NCBI RefSeq assembly: GCF_038624605.1 | Contig: NZ_CP152020.1 | Location: forward strand, 2,659,312 to 2,723,311 | Reading direction: 5' to 3' | Source: Psychrobacillus sp. FSL K6-4046 | GTDB taxonomy: Bacteria; Bacillota; Bacilli; Bacillales_A; Planococcaceae | Length of the DNA: 64,000 bases | Shown here: positions 11,745 to 40,588 of the stretch, piece by piece | How positions within the stretch are numbered: position 1 is the stretch's first letter | Layout: each line of letters opens with the position of its first letter | Program-made: the position numbers and the translations under genes | Notes under the pieces: model-generated | What the model was told of the DNA's origin: nothing | What the model saw: the letters and a program-made list of their open reading frames with translations, nothing else | The model's database searches: none

Positions 11745-12716
11745 TTACATAACCTCCATAATCACTACAAACATTGCAGCCGCAAAGTTAATAGCCCAAA
11801 ATACGGTGACAACTTTACGTTCACTCCAGCCAGAAAGTTCAAAATGATGGTGAATCGGACTCATTTTAAATATTCTCTTACCAGTAGTTTTGAAGCTAAT
11901 GACCTGTAATATAACCGATAATGTTTCTATTACAAAGATAATCCCAACGATCAATAGAAGCACTTCTTGTTGAACAAGAATTGAAACCATAGCTAGTGCT
12001 CCACCTAAAGCTAGTGATCCAGTGTCTCCCATAAAAACTTGAGCGGGATTTTTATTGAACAATAGAAAACCTAACAAGGCTCCAGCAACACTAAAGGCAA
12101 AAATTGCAATATCCGTTTGTTCGTATATTAAAGCAAGCACTCCAAAAGTAGCGAAAGATACTGATGCTGTACCAGATACAAGACCATCTAACCCATCTGA
12201 TAGGTTTACTGCATTGGAGAAGCCAACTAGCCAAAACACTAAAAAGGCAACATAGAACTGACCTAGAGAAAGCGTAATATCAGTCCATGGAATGGAAATT
12301 GAAGTATCAAATGGACCTAGCTTTAACAAGAAAAAGGCAATAATCGCAATAATTATTTGTCCGATTAGTTTTTGTAGAGAAGTTAAACCTAAATTTCTCT
12401 TTAAAACTACTTTTATAAAATCATCCAAGAACCCAATTAACCCAAAGCCCACTAATACTAACAACAATACGATTGACTGTGTCGTAAGCTTGTCAAATAT
12501 AAACGAAATAGCAAGTGTTGTCACAATGATTGAGGTTAAAAATATTAAACCACCCATGGTAGGTGTTCCAGCTTTTTTCTGATGGGATTCTGGCCCCTCT
12601 TCTCTTATACTTTGCCCAAATTTCATCCTTCTTAAATAGGGGATAATAATCGGGGCAAGTATAACAGATACTAAAAAACTAGCAATAAGTGTAATTAACG
12701 TTGTAGACAATGTCAT
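11745..12716 (-). CDS. mraY: MraY, phospho-MurNAc-pentapeptide translocase
   Basis: 323 residues, about ten membrane helices. Signature pieces include [11 protein letters not shown], the catalytic-loop [22 protein letters not shown] and the C-terminal [15 protein letters not shown]. It transfers phospho-MurNAc-pentapeptide to undecaprenyl phosphate to give lipid I. In B. subtilis murE lies between spoVD and mraY; here the gap of 53 bp contains none. murD follows at once. Confidence 0.98.
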
Positions 12717-12769: not shown

Positions 12770-14635
12770 TTATTTTGTGTAAACATGTATAGTCCCATCT
12801 AACGGAATAAGACTGTTTTCTTTCGGTAATTGAGTTAAGATTTCATCTCCATCGCCGTGCCAAACAATTTGAAACGGATACATGTACGATGTAATTTCTT
12901 TTCTTTTAGTTCCTACAAGATTTGGGACGCGGACAGTTTGAACATCTCCCCATCTATAATCTTTCTCTAATTGTTTACCTCCACCGGTAACCTCAAGTGA
13001 ATCTTCAATAATTTGACCTACTATTGGTGCGGCAATTACTCCACCAAACTGAGTACTATGCTTTGGATTATCAATTGCTACATATACTATAAGTTCTGGT
13101 TTATCCGCAGGAGCAAAGCCGATGAAAGAAACAATGTACTCTCCATCCATATATCGGCCGTTCTGAACCTTTTGTGCAGTCCCAGTTTTTCCACCTATCC
13201 GTAATTGGTCTCTATAGGCGTTTCTACCGGAACCATGAGCAACCACGTGTTCAAGTGCCTCACGTACTTTTTGAGAAGTTGCTTCTGATACTACTTGCGT
13301 TTTCATTTCTGGTTCTGCTGTAGATAGAATTTTATTTGTTTCTCCATCCACAATGTTCTTAACAATATAAGGCTTATACAAATAGCCGCCGTTAATAGCC
13401 GCTGCTACTGCTTGAACTTGTTGAATCGGTGTGACAGAAATACCTTGGCCAAATGAAGTGGTTGCATGTTCAACTGGCCCATAAGCATCTTTACTAAATA
13501 GAATGCCCGAAGATTCTCCAGCCATTCCAGAACCTGTGGATTGACCAAATCCAAACTTCTTTATGTACTCTGAAAGCTTGTCAGGTCCAACTCTCCTGCC
13601 TAATTCTATAAATCCCGGGTTACAGGAATTTTCTACAACTTCCAGAAACGTTTGGCTACCATGCCCTTGTCGTTTCCAGCATCGCAGTCTTGCTCCTTCT
13701 ACAATTGTGTAACCAGCATCATGAAAATGGTCATTATCTAAGTTAACAACATTTTCTTCGAGTGCTGCGCTAAGCGTAATAATTTTAAACGTGGATCCAG
13801 GTTCGAATGTCATCCAAACTGGTAAGTTACGATTGTAAATAGTAGAATCAACTTCTTGATAAGAAGAAGGGTCAAAATTTGGAGCCGAAGCTAGTGCTAG
13901 TATCTCTCCATTATTAGGATTCATTACGATTGCAATGCCTTGAGTTGCCTCATATTTATCCATTGCTTGTGACAATTCTCTCTCTACTACGGATTGAATT
14001 TTCATATCGATTGTTAATTGGACATGGTTACCATTTTGTCCATTTTTCCAACTGTCATCCACATGTGGAAGTGGAATGCCTTTAGCATCAGTAAACATTC
14101 GAATGGCTGATTCTTTGCCCTTCAAGACAGAATCGTATTGATATTCGATTCCAGCAAGCCCCTGGGCATCATATCCGGTAAAGCCTAACAATCTCGAAAG
14201 CATTTTACCATGCGGGTAATCTCTGACATAGTCAATACCAGCATACAGACCCTTAACATTTTTATCTTGAATCTGCATAGCTAAGTCAGACGTAATGTTC
14301 TTCCCTGCTGGAGCAATTTTAACAAGATAAGCTCTCTTGTTAATCTGTTCGTATAGCTTACTCTCTTCCACTTCTAACAATGGTGCAATTTCTTTTGCAA
14401 CCTTCTCTGGTTCTTTATTTTGGGAAGGCATATAGAAAAGGGTAGGAGATAGTCTGTTACCAACTATTACCTCCCCATTTCGATCAAGAATATTGCCCCT
14501 TTCAGAAGCATAAGGCAGCTCTCGGTCCCAGCTTTCCTTAGCTTTAGTAGTCAATTCACTGAACTGAAAAAACTGAAGCTGAATAAGCTTTCCCGCTACC
14601 GCCAGAAACAACAGCAGCGTAATAACCCATATCAT
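12770..14635 (-). CDS. spoVD: SpoVD, sporulation class B penicillin-binding protein; start uncertain
   Basis: 621 residues from the first ATG. It has one N-terminal membrane helix, a PBP dimerisation domain (ERGNILDRNGEVI near 50), a transpeptidase domain with active-site motif STFK (in EPGSTFKIITL), SCN (in ENSCNPGF) and KTG (in GGKTGTAQK), and one C-terminal PASTA domain, which is the SpoVD pattern. It crosslinks spore cortex peptidoglycan with SpoVE. An AAAGGAG site (14677-14683) lies too far from ATG 14635; the frame remains open upstream and would add VISKLKQVIRLR, but the codons at good spacing are GTA and ATA, not a usual start. B. subtilis SpoVD has this basic segment, so the real start may be upstream and non-canonical. 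Confidence 0.92.
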   Translation of the reverse strand: MIWVITLLLFLAVAGKLIQLQFFQFSELTTKAKESWDRELPYASERGNILDRNGEVIVGNRLSPTLFYMPSQNKEPEKVAKEIAPLLEVEESKLYEQINKRAYLVKIAPAGKNITSDLAMQIQDKNVKGLYAGIDYVRDYPHGKMLSRLLGFTGYDAQGLAGIEYQYDSVLKGKESAIRMFTDAKGIPLPHVDDSWKNGQNGNHVQLTIDMKIQSVVERELSQAMDKYEATQGIAIVMNPNNGEILALASAPNFDPSSYQEVDSTIYNRNLPVWMTFEPGSTFKIITLSAALEENVVNLDNDHFHDAGYTIVEGARLRCWKRQGHGSQTFLEVVENSCNPGFIELGRRVGPDKLSEYIKKFGFGQSTGSGMAGESSGILFSKDAYGPVEHATTSFGQGISVTPIQQVQAVAAAINGGYLYKPYIVKNIVDGETNKILSTAEPEMKTQVVSEATSQKVREALEHVVAHGSGRNAYRDQLRIGGKTGTAQKVQNGRYMDGEYIVSFIGFAPADKPELIVYVAIDNPKHSTQFGGVIAAPIVGQIIEDSLEVTGGGKQLEKDYRWGDVQTVRVPNLVGTKRKEITSYMYPFQIVWHGDGDEILTQLPKENSLIPLDGTIHVYTK

Positions 14636-36245: not shown

Positions 36246-36695
36246 TTAAGCTGAGCAAGAGCACGACCCGCCGGTTCCACAGCCACTACCGCAGCTTGAA
36301 CCGCTAGAAGCGAAAAATGGATTACTTACAGGTACTTTGACTCCTTCTGAGACTGTTTTACCAATAATCAAGCTTACCTCATCGAGGAGGTCCTGTAACT
36401 CGTTTTCAGCCACCTTAAGAGCTGCTATTTCATCTACCATATCAAGATTACGTTTAGTTACACGAATGTCTTTCATGACTCTTGAGTAATCTGGATGGTA
36501 TTTTCCAAAGCGTTGAACCTCTTCATATTGGTCCTTCAGTCGGGTAAAGCTATTGATTTCCCGCACTAGTTCAGGTTTTGTATATACAGCACGATGTGCA
36601 TTTAAGTAAAGGTAAAATGGTTCAGAGGATAAAATCATTGTACATAATAGGTCTGAGTGATCCATTATATCCACCCATTCATCAGTCATAATCAT
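36246..36695 (-). CDS. ylbF: YlbF, Y-complex (RicF) RNA-processing regulator
   Basis: 149 residues: a helical YlbF/YmcA domain (about 10-120) and a Cys/Gly/Ser-rich tail ending CGSGCGTGGSCSCSA. In B. subtilis YlbF, YmcA and YaaT (RicFAT) form a complex with [4Fe-4S] clusters that works with RNase Y and influences sporulation, competence and biofilm decisions. The tail cysteines are the likely ligands. Start ATG 36695 (MIMTDEWVDIM) lies eight bases after GGAGG. Confidence 0.92.
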   Translation of the reverse strand: MIMTDEWVDIMDHSDLLCTMILSSEPFYLYLNAHRAVYTKPELVREINSFTRLKDQYEEVQRFGKYHPDYSRVMKDIRVTKRNLDMVDEIAALKVAENELQDLLDEVSLIIGKTVSEGVKVPVSNPFFASSGSSCGSGCGTGGSCSCSA

Positions 36696-36779
36696 AAATA
36701 AAACCTCCAATCCTGTTTATCATAACAGAAAACTGGAGACAATTGTTAAACTAATAACTTAAGTGTTAGGAGAATTTCT

Positions 36780-37271
36780 ATGGAAAATTTACAAACTCTA
36801 TTTGAACAAGTTACAAAAGAAGCCTCAGAAACGGAAAAAGGCTTACTGACAGACTTCCTTACCGGATTAAAAAAGAAACAAGAAGGACTTGCCCCTACAT
36901 ACCTAAATGCGACGTTTCAAATGGACACTCGTTTTGAGGACAACCAATGTATTGTAACACTTCCTGTTACCCCACTAATTCATAACAGCTTTGATATGCC
37001 TCATGGTGGTGTCATTGCAACTTTGGTCGATAATGCTATGGGATTTTTAGTGAACAAAGACCTTCATCCAGAAGGAAAAGGTGCCGTTACAACTAATATG
37101 ACGATTAACTACATAAAAGCTTCATCCGAAAAGCAACTGATTGCTACATCTACGTACTTACATAAAGGAAGACAAACGCTAGTAATGGAATGCACGGTTA
37201 CCCAACCGGATGGGAAAAAGATTGCTCATGCAACCGGATCATTTTTTGTTATTACACCTTCATCAAAATAA
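36780..37271 (+). CDS. Hotdog-fold thioesterase (PaaI-like)
   Basis: 163 residues of the 4HBT/PaaI type: a leading helix, then NSFDMPHGGVIATLVDNAMGF holding the HGG motif and Asp, and GAVTTNMTINYIKASS. It would hydrolyse an acyl-CoA whose identity is unknown. Its last 46 bp overlap tail to tail with the murE-like gene, so the two mRNAs are partly antisense. Confidence 0.85.
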   Translation: MENLQTLFEQVTKEASETEKGLLTDFLTGLKKKQEGLAPTYLNATFQMDTRFEDNQCIVTLPVTPLIHNSFDMPHGGVIATLVDNAMGFLVNKDLHPEGKGAVTTNMTINYIKASSEKQLIATSTYLHKGRQTLVMECTVTQPDGKKIAHATGSFFVITPSSK

Positions 37272-38680
37272 GACTGAACTACTTCAAGATCAGAAAAGGG
37301 TAAAACAACTTCTTTAATAATTTGTTCTTTTTCATGCCCTTTTCCCGCTATTAGAACGACGTCTCCTTCTTGAGCGGTAGCTAATGCCAAGCGAATTGCA
37401 TTTCTTCGATTAGCTTCCACCATTACCTTGCTAGGGTCTATCCCTTGAATAATCTCTGCGATAATTGCTTCTGGTTCCTCATTTCGTGGGTTATCAGAAG
37501 TGATAATTGCCTTAGTAGCATATTTGGAAGCTACTTCTCCCATCCATTTTCTCTTTTGCTTATCACGATTTCCTCCACACCCAAAGACAACGAATATATT
37601 TTTCTTCGCATAAACTGTAATAGAAGACAAACAAGCTTCTAATGCATCAGGTGTATGTGCGTAGTCTATCAATACTTCAATCCCCTTATTATTCTGTACC
37701 CTTTGTAGCCTTCCAGCCGGTAAATTTACTGGATAGATCATCTCACATGGGAGGCCAAGCCCTAACATTGCACCAAGTGCAGCAGCTAAATTCATCCCAT
37801 TATGATATCCACTATTCCTCATGATGACAGACGTCTCTTTTCCATTTACTTCATATTCATACTTAACTTCTTCATTTAAATATTTTTCATTACTAAAAAT
37901 TACATCGTTACCTTTCTGATTTCCGAATCGTATTGTTGGTATATATGCTTTTTGTGCAACTGAACGACACCATTCATCATTATTATTAACTACTAGCTTT
38001 CTCGCCAATGGAATGAGTAGCTCCTTAGATTTTTTATATGGCACCATGCCGCCATGAAACTCTAGATGGTCTTTTCCAATATTTAAAAATACAGCTACGT
38101 CCATTGGATAACTTCCTAATCGATTATCCAACAAGCCTTGAGAAGAGGCTTCTAATACGATGTATTCCACATCATAGTCATAACAATACCTCACTACCTG
38201 TATGAAATCATAAAAAGGTAGAGTGGTATTGTTTCTAAATTGTCTTTCCAATTTTTCACCATTCACATAGACCCCTAGAGTACCAATTACACATACTGAC
38301 TTCTGTTGTTGCTTCAATAGCTGCCCAATAAAAGAAGCAACGGTAGTTTTACCATTGGTACCTGTAATGCCTACTGTCTTTATTTTTTGTCCATATTTTT
38401 TATAGGTTAAATACGCAATCTTGTCTTTTAGCAAAAACATATCAGATGGAAGAACGATTTGTGGAACACTACAGTCTGGAATATAATGCTGAGTAATGAC
38501 TAGATTAGCCCCTCTTTGGATTGCTTCTTCTACAAAGGTACGATTGTTGGATTCCCAGACAAATACATCTCCAAGCTGTATTTGTTTGGAATGATCTATA
38601 AAACGATGAACCGTTATACCATTTAAATCTCCAAATATCTTATATTCCAGACCCTCTAATAGCTCTTTTATTGGATAAAT
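37226..38680 (-). CDS. murE: MurE-type UDP-MurNAc-tripeptide ligase with the DAP motif; ATT start
   Basis: 484 residues if started at ATT 38680, the first possible codon after an in-frame TGA. The three Mur domains are complete: N-terminal (GDLNGITVHRFID, GDVFVWESNN, EEAIQRGANLVI), central ATPase (GITGTNGKTTVAS; NIGKDHLEFHGGMVPYKKSK) and C-terminal (VLIDYAHTPDALEACL; FGCGGNRDKQKR; ITSDNPRNEEPE; GKGHE). DNPR is the MurE motif that selects meso-DAP over Lys. The first ATG, at 38440, would delete most of the N-terminal domain; GGGAG lies nine bases before ATT. The enzyme adds the third amino acid to UDP-MurNAc-Ala-Glu. It is the only murE in this window and lies outside the wall cluster. Confidence 0.85.
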   Translation of the reverse strand: MYPIKELLEGLEYKIFGDLNGITVHRFIDHSKQIQLGDVFVWESNNRTFVEEAIQRGANLVITQHYIPDCSVPQIVLPSDMFLLKDKIAYLTYKKYGQKIKTVGITGTNGKTTVASFIGQLLKQQQKSVCVIGTLGVYVNGEKLERQFRNNTTLPFYDFIQVVRYCYDYDVEYIVLEASSQGLLDNRLGSYPMDVAVFLNIGKDHLEFHGGMVPYKKSKELLIPLARKLVVNNNDEWCRSVAQKAYIPTIRFGNQKGNDVIFSNEKYLNEEVKYEYEVNGKETSVIMRNSGYHNGMNLAAALGAMLGLGLPCEMIYPVNLPAGRLQRVQNNKGIEVLIDYAHTPDALEACLSSITVYAKKNIFVVFGCGGNRDKQKRKWMGEVASKYATKAIITSDNPRNEEPEAIIAEIIQGIDPSKVMVEANRRNAIRLALATAQEGDVVLIAGKGHEKEQIIKEVVLPFSDLEVVQSYFDEGVITKNDPVA

Positions 38681-38696
38681 AGTAGCTCACTCCCTA

Positions 38697-38724
38697 CACC
38701 ATTCTTGTTAAATCGCATACAGTA
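38697..38724 (+). promoter_or_regulatory. SigK-like (mother-cell) promoter for the short aspartokinase gene
   Basis: AC (38698-38699, in CACC), 16 bases, then CATACAGTA (38716-38724) match the SigK consensus AC, N16-17, CATANNNTA at every fixed position. CATACAGT also fits the SigE -10 (CATACANT), but no SigE -35 is seen. The expected start of transcription lies about 55 bp before the ATG at 38789. Confidence 0.6.
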
Positions 38725-38788
38725 AAATGAATTCCTTGTATTTTATGAACGGAGTGTTTGAAATGTCACGAAAAGAGTGGTTGAAAAT

Positions 38789-39520
38789 ATGATTGTGCAA
38801 AAATATGGAGGAATTGCGATGCAGGATACTTCGAATAGACAATTAGTCATCGAAAGAATCCAAAAAGCAATCACTGCCCATAAGAAAGTGTTAGTTGTTG
38901 TATCCGCCATGGGAAGAAGAGGTCAACATTACTCTACCGATACATTGCTTGACCTTATACCAAGCTCGCCACACAGTGTAGAGACAGATTTACTTTCTGC
39001 ATGTGGAGAGCTCATTAGTGCATCTGTACTAGTAGCAGAATTGAAACAAAATGGTGTTCATTCAACTATTTTGTATGGTAAAAATGCTGGGATTATTACT
39101 AACGAAGAATTTGGCAATGCAAATATAGATAAGGTAGACACCACACAAATTTTAAAAACATTTGAGGACTACCCATGCATCGTAGTTCCTGGGTTTCAAG
39201 GAGTTACAGAAGGTAGTAACAATTTTACTACCCTTGGAAGAGGTGGAAGTGATTTAACGGCTGTCGTATATGGCTATTATTTAAAAGCAGATGTTGTAGA
39301 ATTTTACAAGAATGTGCCAGGAGTGATGTCAGCAGATCCTTCTACTAATAGCGAAGTGGAATTAATATCCCATATGACGTATGATGAGCTTCAACTTAAA
39401 ATAAATGAACCTGTAGAAGTCATACAAAAAAGAGCAGCAAATTTTGCTGCCCTTCATGGTGTCCCACTTCATATTCGCTCTTTGTACGAAGAAACAAATG
39501 GTACTTTTGTTCATCTATAA
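38789..39520 (+). CDS. Aspartokinase-like protein without ACT domains
   Basis: 243 residues that cover only the catalytic amino-acid-kinase domain: IVQKYGGIAM at the start (KFGGTSV in standard aspartokinases), VVVSAMGRRG, LSACGELISASVL, FQGVTEG, LGRGGSDLTAVVYGYYL and NVPGVMSADPS, ending at HIRSLYEETNGTFVHL, where the two ACT regulatory domains usually begin. It should phosphorylate aspartate, the first step to DAP, Lys, Thr and Met, but without the usual feedback site. The Thr-Ser of KFGGTS is changed to Ile-Ala, so activity is not certain. GTG 38777 is an alternative start. It is divergent from murE and its stop abuts the ylbC stop. Confidence 0.75.
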   Translation: MIVQKYGGIAMQDTSNRQLVIERIQKAITAHKKVLVVVSAMGRRGQHYSTDTLLDLIPSSPHSVETDLLSACGELISASVLVAELKQNGVHSTILYGKNAGIITNEEFGNANIDKVDTTQILKTFEDYPCIVVPGFQGVTEGSNNFTTLGRGGSDLTAVVYGYYLKADVVEFYKNVPGVMSADPSTNSEVELISHMTYDELQLKINEPVEVIQKRAANFAALHGVPLHIRSLYEETNGTFVHL

Positions 39521-40588
39521 TTATTCTAGATTATCTTTTTTCTCAATAAAGTTTTGCGTATAGTAATTACTGTAGACTCCTACACCGGTATGAGTATATG
39601 ACCTACCTAATAAAGTTTGTCGATGGTCTGGGGAATTCAACCAACCATTCACAGCTTCTCCAGCATCAAAGTAAAAAGCAGCAGTATTACCACCAGCGCG
39701 ATTAAAATCCAGTGATGCTTCTTTAAGCTTATCTTTAAACCTTGGTATCTCAAAGTTATCGTTTGTAACAATATTATTCTTTGCCATCTCTTCACTGTGC
39801 ATATCAGCCAAGTTCTGGAGGTTAACGTCTGATTCTAAAACACGTAACCCATGTCGAAGCCTTAAAATATTTGTTATCTCCACAACTTGGATAGCAGTAG
39901 CTCTATCCGCCTTTACTTGAAGATTGGAAGATGGTGTTTTAGATTCAATGACTTCCCCACTATATAAGATATCATACGGTTTATGCAGGAGAAGAGTTTG
40001 TGAGTCACTAAATCTGACAGCCTCTAGCTGTTGATCCTTTTGATCAATATAGAGCATCGCGAACAAATCATCAAATTGAACCAGCAGTCTAGTTTTAATA
40101 TCATTTTCGTTTAAGGAAAATATATATGTGTTGTCGCCAATATTCATTGTTACTTCGGATTGCACTAGTGTGAACCGGTAGATGTCTTCAAGAGACTGAC
40201 CAATCTTGTAAGGGGAAGTATCAACATGATTTCCTATTGCAAATGCCTGTGTTACTTTGTCTTCTTTAACTCCTATTAACATATAGTCGGAGAAAGTCTT
40301 ATTATATACCCACCATTCATATCCATAAATGGAAGGGTCAATTCTAGCTGGATTTCCATAAAGGGTCCTCACTTCCTTTACTGACTTTCCTATTAAAGTG
40401 GAGATTCCCTCCTTCGGCCTTGTGAATATACTAACGGTTTCGACTACTTCTTCTCTTTCAACTGGAATTAGCTGGCCGTTATTATTTGAACCTGTTATTA
40501 AATCGTTTTCTCGAACTGGTGAATCAAAATATATGAATATTAATAATATAATAGCCATGCCAACTAAAATATGAAATAAAGTTTTCAA
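39521..40588 (-). CDS. ylbC: YlbC-like CAP-domain protein
   Basis: 355 residues: a signal-anchor (about 4-22), an N-terminal CAP-associated domain with two related modules (IGKSVKEVRTLYGNPARIDP and IGQSLEDIYRFT) and a C-terminal CAP/SCP domain (LRLRHGLRVLESDVNLQNLADMHSEEMA, then GGNTAAFYFDAGEAVNGWLNSPDHRQTLLG, in pieces). It is probably exported and anchored. The function of YlbC is unknown. The gene order next to ylbF and the cta genes fits B. subtilis ylbC. Confidence 0.88.
   Translation of the reverse strand: MKTLFHILVGMAIILLIFIYFDSPVRENDLITGSNNNGQLIPVEREEVVETVSIFTRPKEGISTLIGKSVKEVRTLYGNPARIDPSIYGYEWWVYNKTFSDYMLIGVKEDKVTQAFAIGNHVDTSPYKIGQSLEDIYRFTLVQSEVTMNIGDNTYIFSLNENDIKTRLLVQFDDLFAMLYIDQKDQQLEAVRFSDSQTLLLHKPYDILYSGEVIESKTPSSNLQVKADRATAIQVVEITNILRLRHGLRVLESDVNLQNLADMHSEEMAKNNIVTNDNFEIPRFKDKLKEASLDFNRAGGNTAAFYFDAGEAVNGWLNSPDHRQTLLGRSYTHTGVGVYSNYYTQNFIEKKDNLE

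Follow-up and report, generated by a model that had tools for sequence, protein, structure and literature searches.

Why should a bacterium keep a complete DAP-type MurE ligase far from its wall gene cluster, back to back with an aspartokinase that carries no ACT domain? This is the question raised by a locus of Psychrobacillus sp. FSL K6-4046, which we have examined within a stretch of 64,000 nucleotides (hereafter the window, with a G+C content of 35.6-37.8%). The vegetative walls of the Planococcaceae mostly use Lys, and the formation of a DAP-containing cortex by a cell whose vegetative wall is devoid of DAP is a known phenomenon, the enzyme activity behind the cortex DAP precursor having been known for about fifty years. 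We will argue, with a probability of roughly 80%, that the MurE of the window is a DAP-type ligase dedicated to the spore, where it would serve the cortex, that the vegetative wall is made by another MurE, and that the adjacent ACT-less kinase accompanies the spore ligase in six genera.

The murE gene, its start codon and its motif

The minus-strand frame 37226-38692 is open throughout and encodes a whole MurE, which passes both the NCBIfam murE model TIGR01085 (380.6 bits for a cut-off of 257.3) and NF001126, the equivalog model for DAP ligases (402 bits for a cut-off of 373). The dcw cluster, with spoVD at 12770-14635 and mraY (named by recognition) at 11745-12716, contains no murE, and the sole other Mur_ligase_M match inside the window, L005, is one that we take to be MurD. 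The claim of the original prediction that a complete MurE with a DNPR motif lies far outside the wall cluster is confirmed in the form of a 484-aa frame. The features of the locus, and the two other MurE genes of the genome, are collected in Table 1.

Table 1. Features of the murE-kinase locus and further MurE genes of the genome (window positions unless a locus is named)
Feature	Position	Strand	Remarks
YlbF/YmcA-type protein (PF06133)	36246..36710	-	flank
Hotdog thioesterase	36780..37271	+	convergent with murE, overlaps its 3' end
Spore-type murE (putative), DAP-type UDP-MurNAc-tripeptide synthetase	37226..38680	-	484 aa, ATT start
DNPR motif of MurE	37484..37495	-	residues 396-399 with the ATT as codon 1; alignment with E. 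coli MurE (1e8c)
Proposed murE ATT start codon	38678..38680	-	preceded by AGGGAG; constant in the genus
Weak promoter candidate of the kinase	38696..38724	+	ACACC-N14-GCATACAGTA, read by eye
Sigma-E-like promoter candidate of murE	38740..38769	-	GTGACATT-N12-TTCATAAAAT, ends 59 nt before the ATT
Putative aspartokinase without ACT domains	38789..39520	+	243 aa, ATG 38789; earlier placed at GTG 38777
CAP-associated N-terminal and CAP domain protein	39521..40588	-	flank
L002 MurE	L002 919-2505 (G000:C1:3783635 region)		DNPx absent; GCQGMD where others show GKGHE
L003, third MurE type	L003 1180-2631		own copy DDLN

The gene was earlier given a start at ATG 38440, the first canonical start past the ATT. 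We place the start upstream of it, because the 80 codons that precede this ATG are conserved in the genus with the substitution pattern of a coding sequence (mean pairwise differences among the genus loci of 0.29 at the first, 0.17 at the second and 0.50 at the third codon position), and because the homology extends further upstream. The window sequence has no in-frame ATG, GTG or TTG upstream of 38440, and no other such codon common to all 19 genus loci was found in the first 80 codons. An ATT occupies the proposed start in each of these 19 loci (L013-L031, two of which represent one species), and AGGGAG stands ahead of it in all of them except L031. The protein most likely begins, as this comparison suggests, at the ATT 38680-38678, and such a conserved ATT start would fit a gene that is held at a low level. 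Codon 81, at window position 38440, is an ATG in 18 of the 19 genus loci and a TTG in the other, and an internal start at this codon might also give rise to a shorter MurE. While the genus appears to use ATT, it is a TTG that opens the matching segment in the 11 loci read of genera g3, g5 and g14.

The window MurE bears DNPR, the motif of meso-DAP-type MurE, and its alignment with the E. coli enzyme matches both DNPR and GKGHE. According to PMC3829189, the Asn and the Arg of this motif bind the mDAP carboxylate, and an Ala-to-Arg change that restored DNPR in the MurE of S. aureus yielded no mDAP activity, so that DNPR alone is no proof of specificity. The D, N and R of DN.R are retained in all 60 spore-type loci read: 53 have DNPR, and seven from g13, g18 and g19 (L126-L129 and L176-L178) have DNAR, DNSR or DNCR, which keep the mDAP-holding residues. 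The vegetative MurE outside the window's genus is of the DDPR type in the 14 genes read (13 of g7, and that of genome G002). The window MurE would with high probability be a DAP-type, spore-dedicated ligase.

Distribution of the spore-type MurE and the vegetative ligases

Our sample consists of 200 genomes of the family, 131 of which match the window MurE at E <= 1e-80. The 70 genomes without that match or without SpoIVA were searched again with an alignment (A1) at E <= 1e-90. Among the 20 SpoIVA-positive genomes that lacked the first match, A1 gives 487-724 bits in 15, and in four it matches the first half only, with intact frames and 309-377 bits; the murE loci of these four all adjoin the kinase, and the one that was read holds DNPR. 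Neither the window MurE nor A1 found a spore-type MurE in the SpoIVA- and SpoIIE-positive G020, of genus g2, in which either sporulation is decaying or another amino acid is used in the cortex. The genome of G020 measures 2.7 Mb and consists of one contig. G099, which has SpoIIE but no SpoIVA, does match A1, with 631 bits. In the other 49 SpoIVA-negative genomes, the best A1 match reaches 344-381 bits in 46 (with the motif read for 13), and there is none in three, which belong to g2. These values are close to those of the second MurE (340-360 bits) that sporulators of other genera searched with A1 hold in addition to the spore-type one.

SpoIVA is present in 150 of the 200 genomes, and SpoIIE in the same set plus G099, that is, in 151. 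The spore-type MurE occurs in 150 of the 151 SpoIIE-positive genomes and in none of the 49 SpoIIE-negative ones; with respect to SpoIVA, it occurs in 149 of the 150 positive genomes and in one of the 50 negative ones. Its distribution thus tracks that of the sporulation genes, and it may serve as a genomic marker of sporulation in the family.

This joint change can be followed on an RpoB tree. Of the 67 genomes chosen for it, 66 were included, no rpoB match having been obtained for G031. The supported branches of this tree provide six independent SpoIIE contrasts, with MurE changing in the same direction in five, in the opposite direction in none and showing no difference in one; with SpoIVA as the marker there are seven contrasts, of which five go in the same direction, none in the opposite one, and two show no difference. 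A sign test on the SpoIIE contrasts gives p = 0.0625, five informative pairs being unable to reach 0.05. The non-sporulators are scattered over the tree (g8 within g3, g9 with g17, g6 with g14, g7 with g12, g16, and g2 next to the genus of the window), with weak support at some of these positions. The contrast method itself is blind to loss versus gain, and we infer that loss was the direction.

In a tree of MurE proteins, the spore-type sequences form one clade (22 rows, 100/100) that is separate from the vegetative DDPR clade and that includes L043, from Sporosarcina highlanderae. The stem of the window's genus is long (1.02 changes per column). In this tree, sequences of neighbouring Mur ligases had replaced several rows of the outgroup, which make up a distant block; the long branches of L002 and L003 cannot be joined safely, and the tree does not resolve where the spore-type clade falls among the MurE of Bacillaceae.

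The genome holds seven Mur_ligase_M matches, of which three are MurE-like by sequence, and the second MurE to be sought elsewhere in the genome turned out to be two genes, L002 and L003, neither of them with DNPR. The L002 type is found in 19 of the 19 genus members (82-100% identity), in the four g2 genomes (68-71%) and in one g10 genome (58%), and its C-terminal part gives 150 bits with the pseudomurein ligase model pMurE, which is below the cut-off of that model. Nine genus members have no L003 match; L002 is the sole other MurE that these searches found there, and so the likely vegetative enzyme in these nine. At a guess, its substrate could be ornithine. The L003 type, mostly with DDLN and FGFRG, is patchy over the family, several of its matches being interrupted by a stop. 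It was rejected both as the spore enzyme and as the vegetative one, because at E <= 1e-90 it occurs in 10 of the 19 genus members and in 38 of the 200 genomes, including those of the non-sporulating g7 and g12. In both neighbourhoods read outside the genus (G190 and G002), the vegetative MurE lies beside prfC, a gene named by recognition.

The DNPR MurE is present in the 19 genus members searched and is the only DNPR MurE of the genome, as would be expected if it were the ordinary vegetative enzyme of the genus, making a DAP wall from a gene displaced from the dcw cluster, with L002 doing something else. We hold this to be very improbable. Indeed, the sister genus g2 is devoid of the spore-type MurE in four genomes out of four, SpoIVA and SpoIIE being absent as well from three of these, and it keeps the L002 type in all four; within the window's genus, the L002 type is the better conserved of the two (lowest identity of 82% versus 61%). 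Moreover, in the sporulators of other genera with two MurE, the non-spore one, as read in G002, carries DDPR and sits beside prfC, and the ATT start would be more at home in a weakly expressed gene. We will thus keep to the reading of a ligase dedicated to the spore.

The divergent kinase and the intergenic control region

The kinase matches PF00696 with 117 bits over its 243 aa, no other Pfam domain is found in it at E <= 0.001, and no ACT region is present in the 16 aligned members of its clade. Its divergence from murE and its lack of feedback domains were both correctly foreseen. The genome encodes two more aspartokinases, of 405 and 454 aa, which we take to be of the LysC and AKIII types. 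The NCBIfam model that the kinase resembles best is that of aspartokinase NF006068/PRK08210, presumably the model of Bacillus subtilis DapG, which it matches over the kinase domain only and with 254 bits for a cut-off of 474. None of the 200 genomes has a match over this cut-off; 81 have lower ones, that of the window's genome being L008, of the LysC type. Of 14 control genomes, three give a signal, Bacillus subtilis being one of these, and one exceeds the cut-off. The simplest reading of these sequences is that the kinase would be a DapG-like enzyme that lost its feedback part and was then coupled to the spore ligase.

At E <= 1e-45, the kinase is found in 72 of the 200 genomes, all of them SpoIVA-positive (g1, g3, g4, g5, g11 and g17), and murE adjoins it in 72 of 72, with 91-252 bases between the matches. 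At the same threshold it is absent from 78 of the 150 SpoIVA-positive genomes. The hotdog thioesterase beside murE is conserved in many loci, and the CAP protein, which by its arrangement we take to be YlbC-like, adjoins the pair elsewhere too; six g14 loci retain murE, the thioesterase and the CAP protein without the kinase. The expected conservation of the pair across the Planococcaceae thus extends beyond the genus, to six genera, but as the kinase is found in 72 genomes and the spore-type MurE in 150, it is the MurE, and not the pair, that constitutes the unit. The kinase is a lineage-specific partner of the spore-type MurE.

Where other aspartokinases have KFGGTS or KYGGSS, the kinase has KYGGIA, and none of the 16 aligned clade members has a Thr or Ser at the TS positions of KFGGTS, which makes its activity less than certain. 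It might then no longer be an active aspartokinase, and have a regulatory or other role. We consider this unlikely, since the same 16 members retain CGE, GFQG and GRGGSD, and since the identity inside the genus (67-100%) and the strict linkage to murE suggest a selected function.

What an active kinase would feed is less clear-cut. The dpa operon of this genome reads ymxH-dpaA-dpaB-asd-(505-bp gap)-dapA, these genes being named by recognition (the dpaA match, of 74 bits, is below the cut-off of its model), and it lacks the dapG that sits between asd and dapA in Bacillus subtilis. Because dapG is missing, the kinase may equally supply dipicolinate, either in addition to the DAP of the cortex or in its place. 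The MurE would then work for the spore and the kinase mainly for dipicolinic acid, a possibility that we place somewhat below even odds. The gap in the operon and the absence of NF006068 matches over the cut-off in the sample, when this is the very model that the kinase resembles best, both speak for it. However, one would hardly expect such a kinase to be linked to murE in every genome that has it, and the 78 SpoIVA-positive genomes that lack it have no NF006068 match over the cut-off either. The two uses are compatible, as the pools are shared. In the gap itself (L155 2549-3053), the frames repeat each other and AVAEELPPRISPFACRG occurs twice, in the manner of a repeat element; inspection of its listed frames by eye revealed no dapG remnant or ACT domain. 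As for the original prediction that the pair provides both DAP and the DAP precursor for the cortex, its ligase half is well supported, MurE tracking the two sporulation genes almost perfectly, but its kinase half is weakened by the restricted distribution of the kinase and by its possible role in dipicolinate supply.

A mother-cell-type promoter had also been predicted between the two genes. According to the Figure 4 legend of PMC517825, a sigma-E promoter consists of an 8-nt -35 element, a spacer of 12+-1 and a 10-nt -10 element. The consensus letters with which we scored 38 of the 60 loci do not come from that paper (seven loci were dropped by the DNPR filter and 15 for an unclear start; L188, which lies in the wrong place, and L193 were left out). 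In the 29 scored loci of g1, g3, g5 and g17, GTGACATT-N12-TTCATACGAT or a near variant is found 59-64 nt before the murE start, without exception; the -10 block of the window itself is TTCATAAAAT, and a search of both strands of the window finds the strict form, GTGACATT-N14-CATA, a single time. Six g14 loci have another element, with the same spacer of 12, at 24-26 nt before the start, and three spore-type loci of g10 have neither element at those places. The window murE scores 20, a value reached by 16 of 2000 random 160-mers of the window, while the spoIVA upstreams of 12 loci, intended as a positive control, score only 15-19, the vegetative MurE upstreams 13-19 (15 DDPR rows of 14 genes) and seven L002-type rows 15-18. 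The argument is therefore one of conservation and not of score, given the origin of the letters and the overlap with the controls: what stands of the predicted promoter is an element of two conserved blocks, spaced as for sigma-E, to which the consensus score adds little. On the kinase side, the scores of 15-17 are within the background. A nine-codon open reading frame (38763-38792, plus strand) starts with ATGTCACGA, and its TGA overlaps the ATG of the kinase; this could be a leader peptide, or no more than the -35 region of murE.

A proposed route to the cortex and its known counterparts

The gene content, the motifs, the orthology, the joint change with sporulation genes, the linkage and the promoter-like element can be read directly from the genomes, and they suggest the following model. 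In growing cells, the wall would be built by another MurE. In the sporulating cell, and most likely in the mother cell, the spore-type MurE would be expressed from the putative sigma-E promoter and would add meso-DAP as the third residue of the stem peptide destined for the spore cortex. The adjacent ACT-less aspartokinase, which is present in six genera including that of the window, would simultaneously open the aspartate pathway; DAP, and probably also the precursor of dipicolinate, could then be made despite the restraint that lysine and threonine exert on ordinary aspartokinases. More tentatively, the window's genus and its sister may have replaced their vegetative ligase with the L002 lineage, which is devoid of the third-amino-acid motif. 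This would be one part of a wall-chemistry switch made of exchangeable parts, in which a near-universal spore ligase is kept off during growth by a sporulation promoter and an AUU start, and to which a feedback-free aspartokinase has been coupled in several lineages, a scenario that we find possible and rather doubtful.

An extra MurE that tracks sporulation suggests that the spore wall is built from a different block than the growing wall. This locus offers a candidate gene for the cortex DAP-precursor activity of bacteria that have a different amino acid in their growing wall, and it opens the question of why DAP is required in the cortex to a direct test through one gene. The MurE paralogues of one cell also form a natural set of enzymes with differing pockets for the third amino acid.

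Several known systems can be set beside this one. In E. coli, murE is single and essential, and its product, a meso-DAP ligase, shares DNPR and GKGHE with the window MurE, whose gene differs by its position outside the dcw cluster and by its ATT start. The closest solved relative by sequence is 4bub, which we take to be the MurE of Thermotoga maritima; it carries the PDB name LD-lysine ligase and has DDPR, like the vegetative MurE sequences examined from other genera, whereas the window MurE has DNPR. The DapG of Bacillus subtilis (aspartokinase I) provides the best model for the kinase domain, but the window kinase has no ACT domains, remains below the cut-off of that model and has murE as its neighbour where DapG has asd and dapA. 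Tipper, Pratt and Linnett reportedly described a sporulation-specific meso-DAP-adding enzyme in Bacillus (Lysinibacillus) sphaericus, that is, a second third-position ligase for the cortex, as we propose for the window MurE; there it is known as an activity, and here it takes the form of a gene clade with its linkage, its distribution and, in six genera, its extra kinase. A literature search, with most subscription journals outside its scope, revealed no gene assigned to that activity, and no description of the spore-type clade and its joint change with sporulation genes, of the ATT start of murE or of an ACT-less kinase as a partner of murE. Finally, Clostridioides difficile has wall synthases of the dcw type that are dedicated to sporulation, as described in PMC10693644: wall genes appear to have been re-dedicated to sporulation in both cases, with synthases of the wall there, and here the ligase that provides the third amino acid of its precursor.
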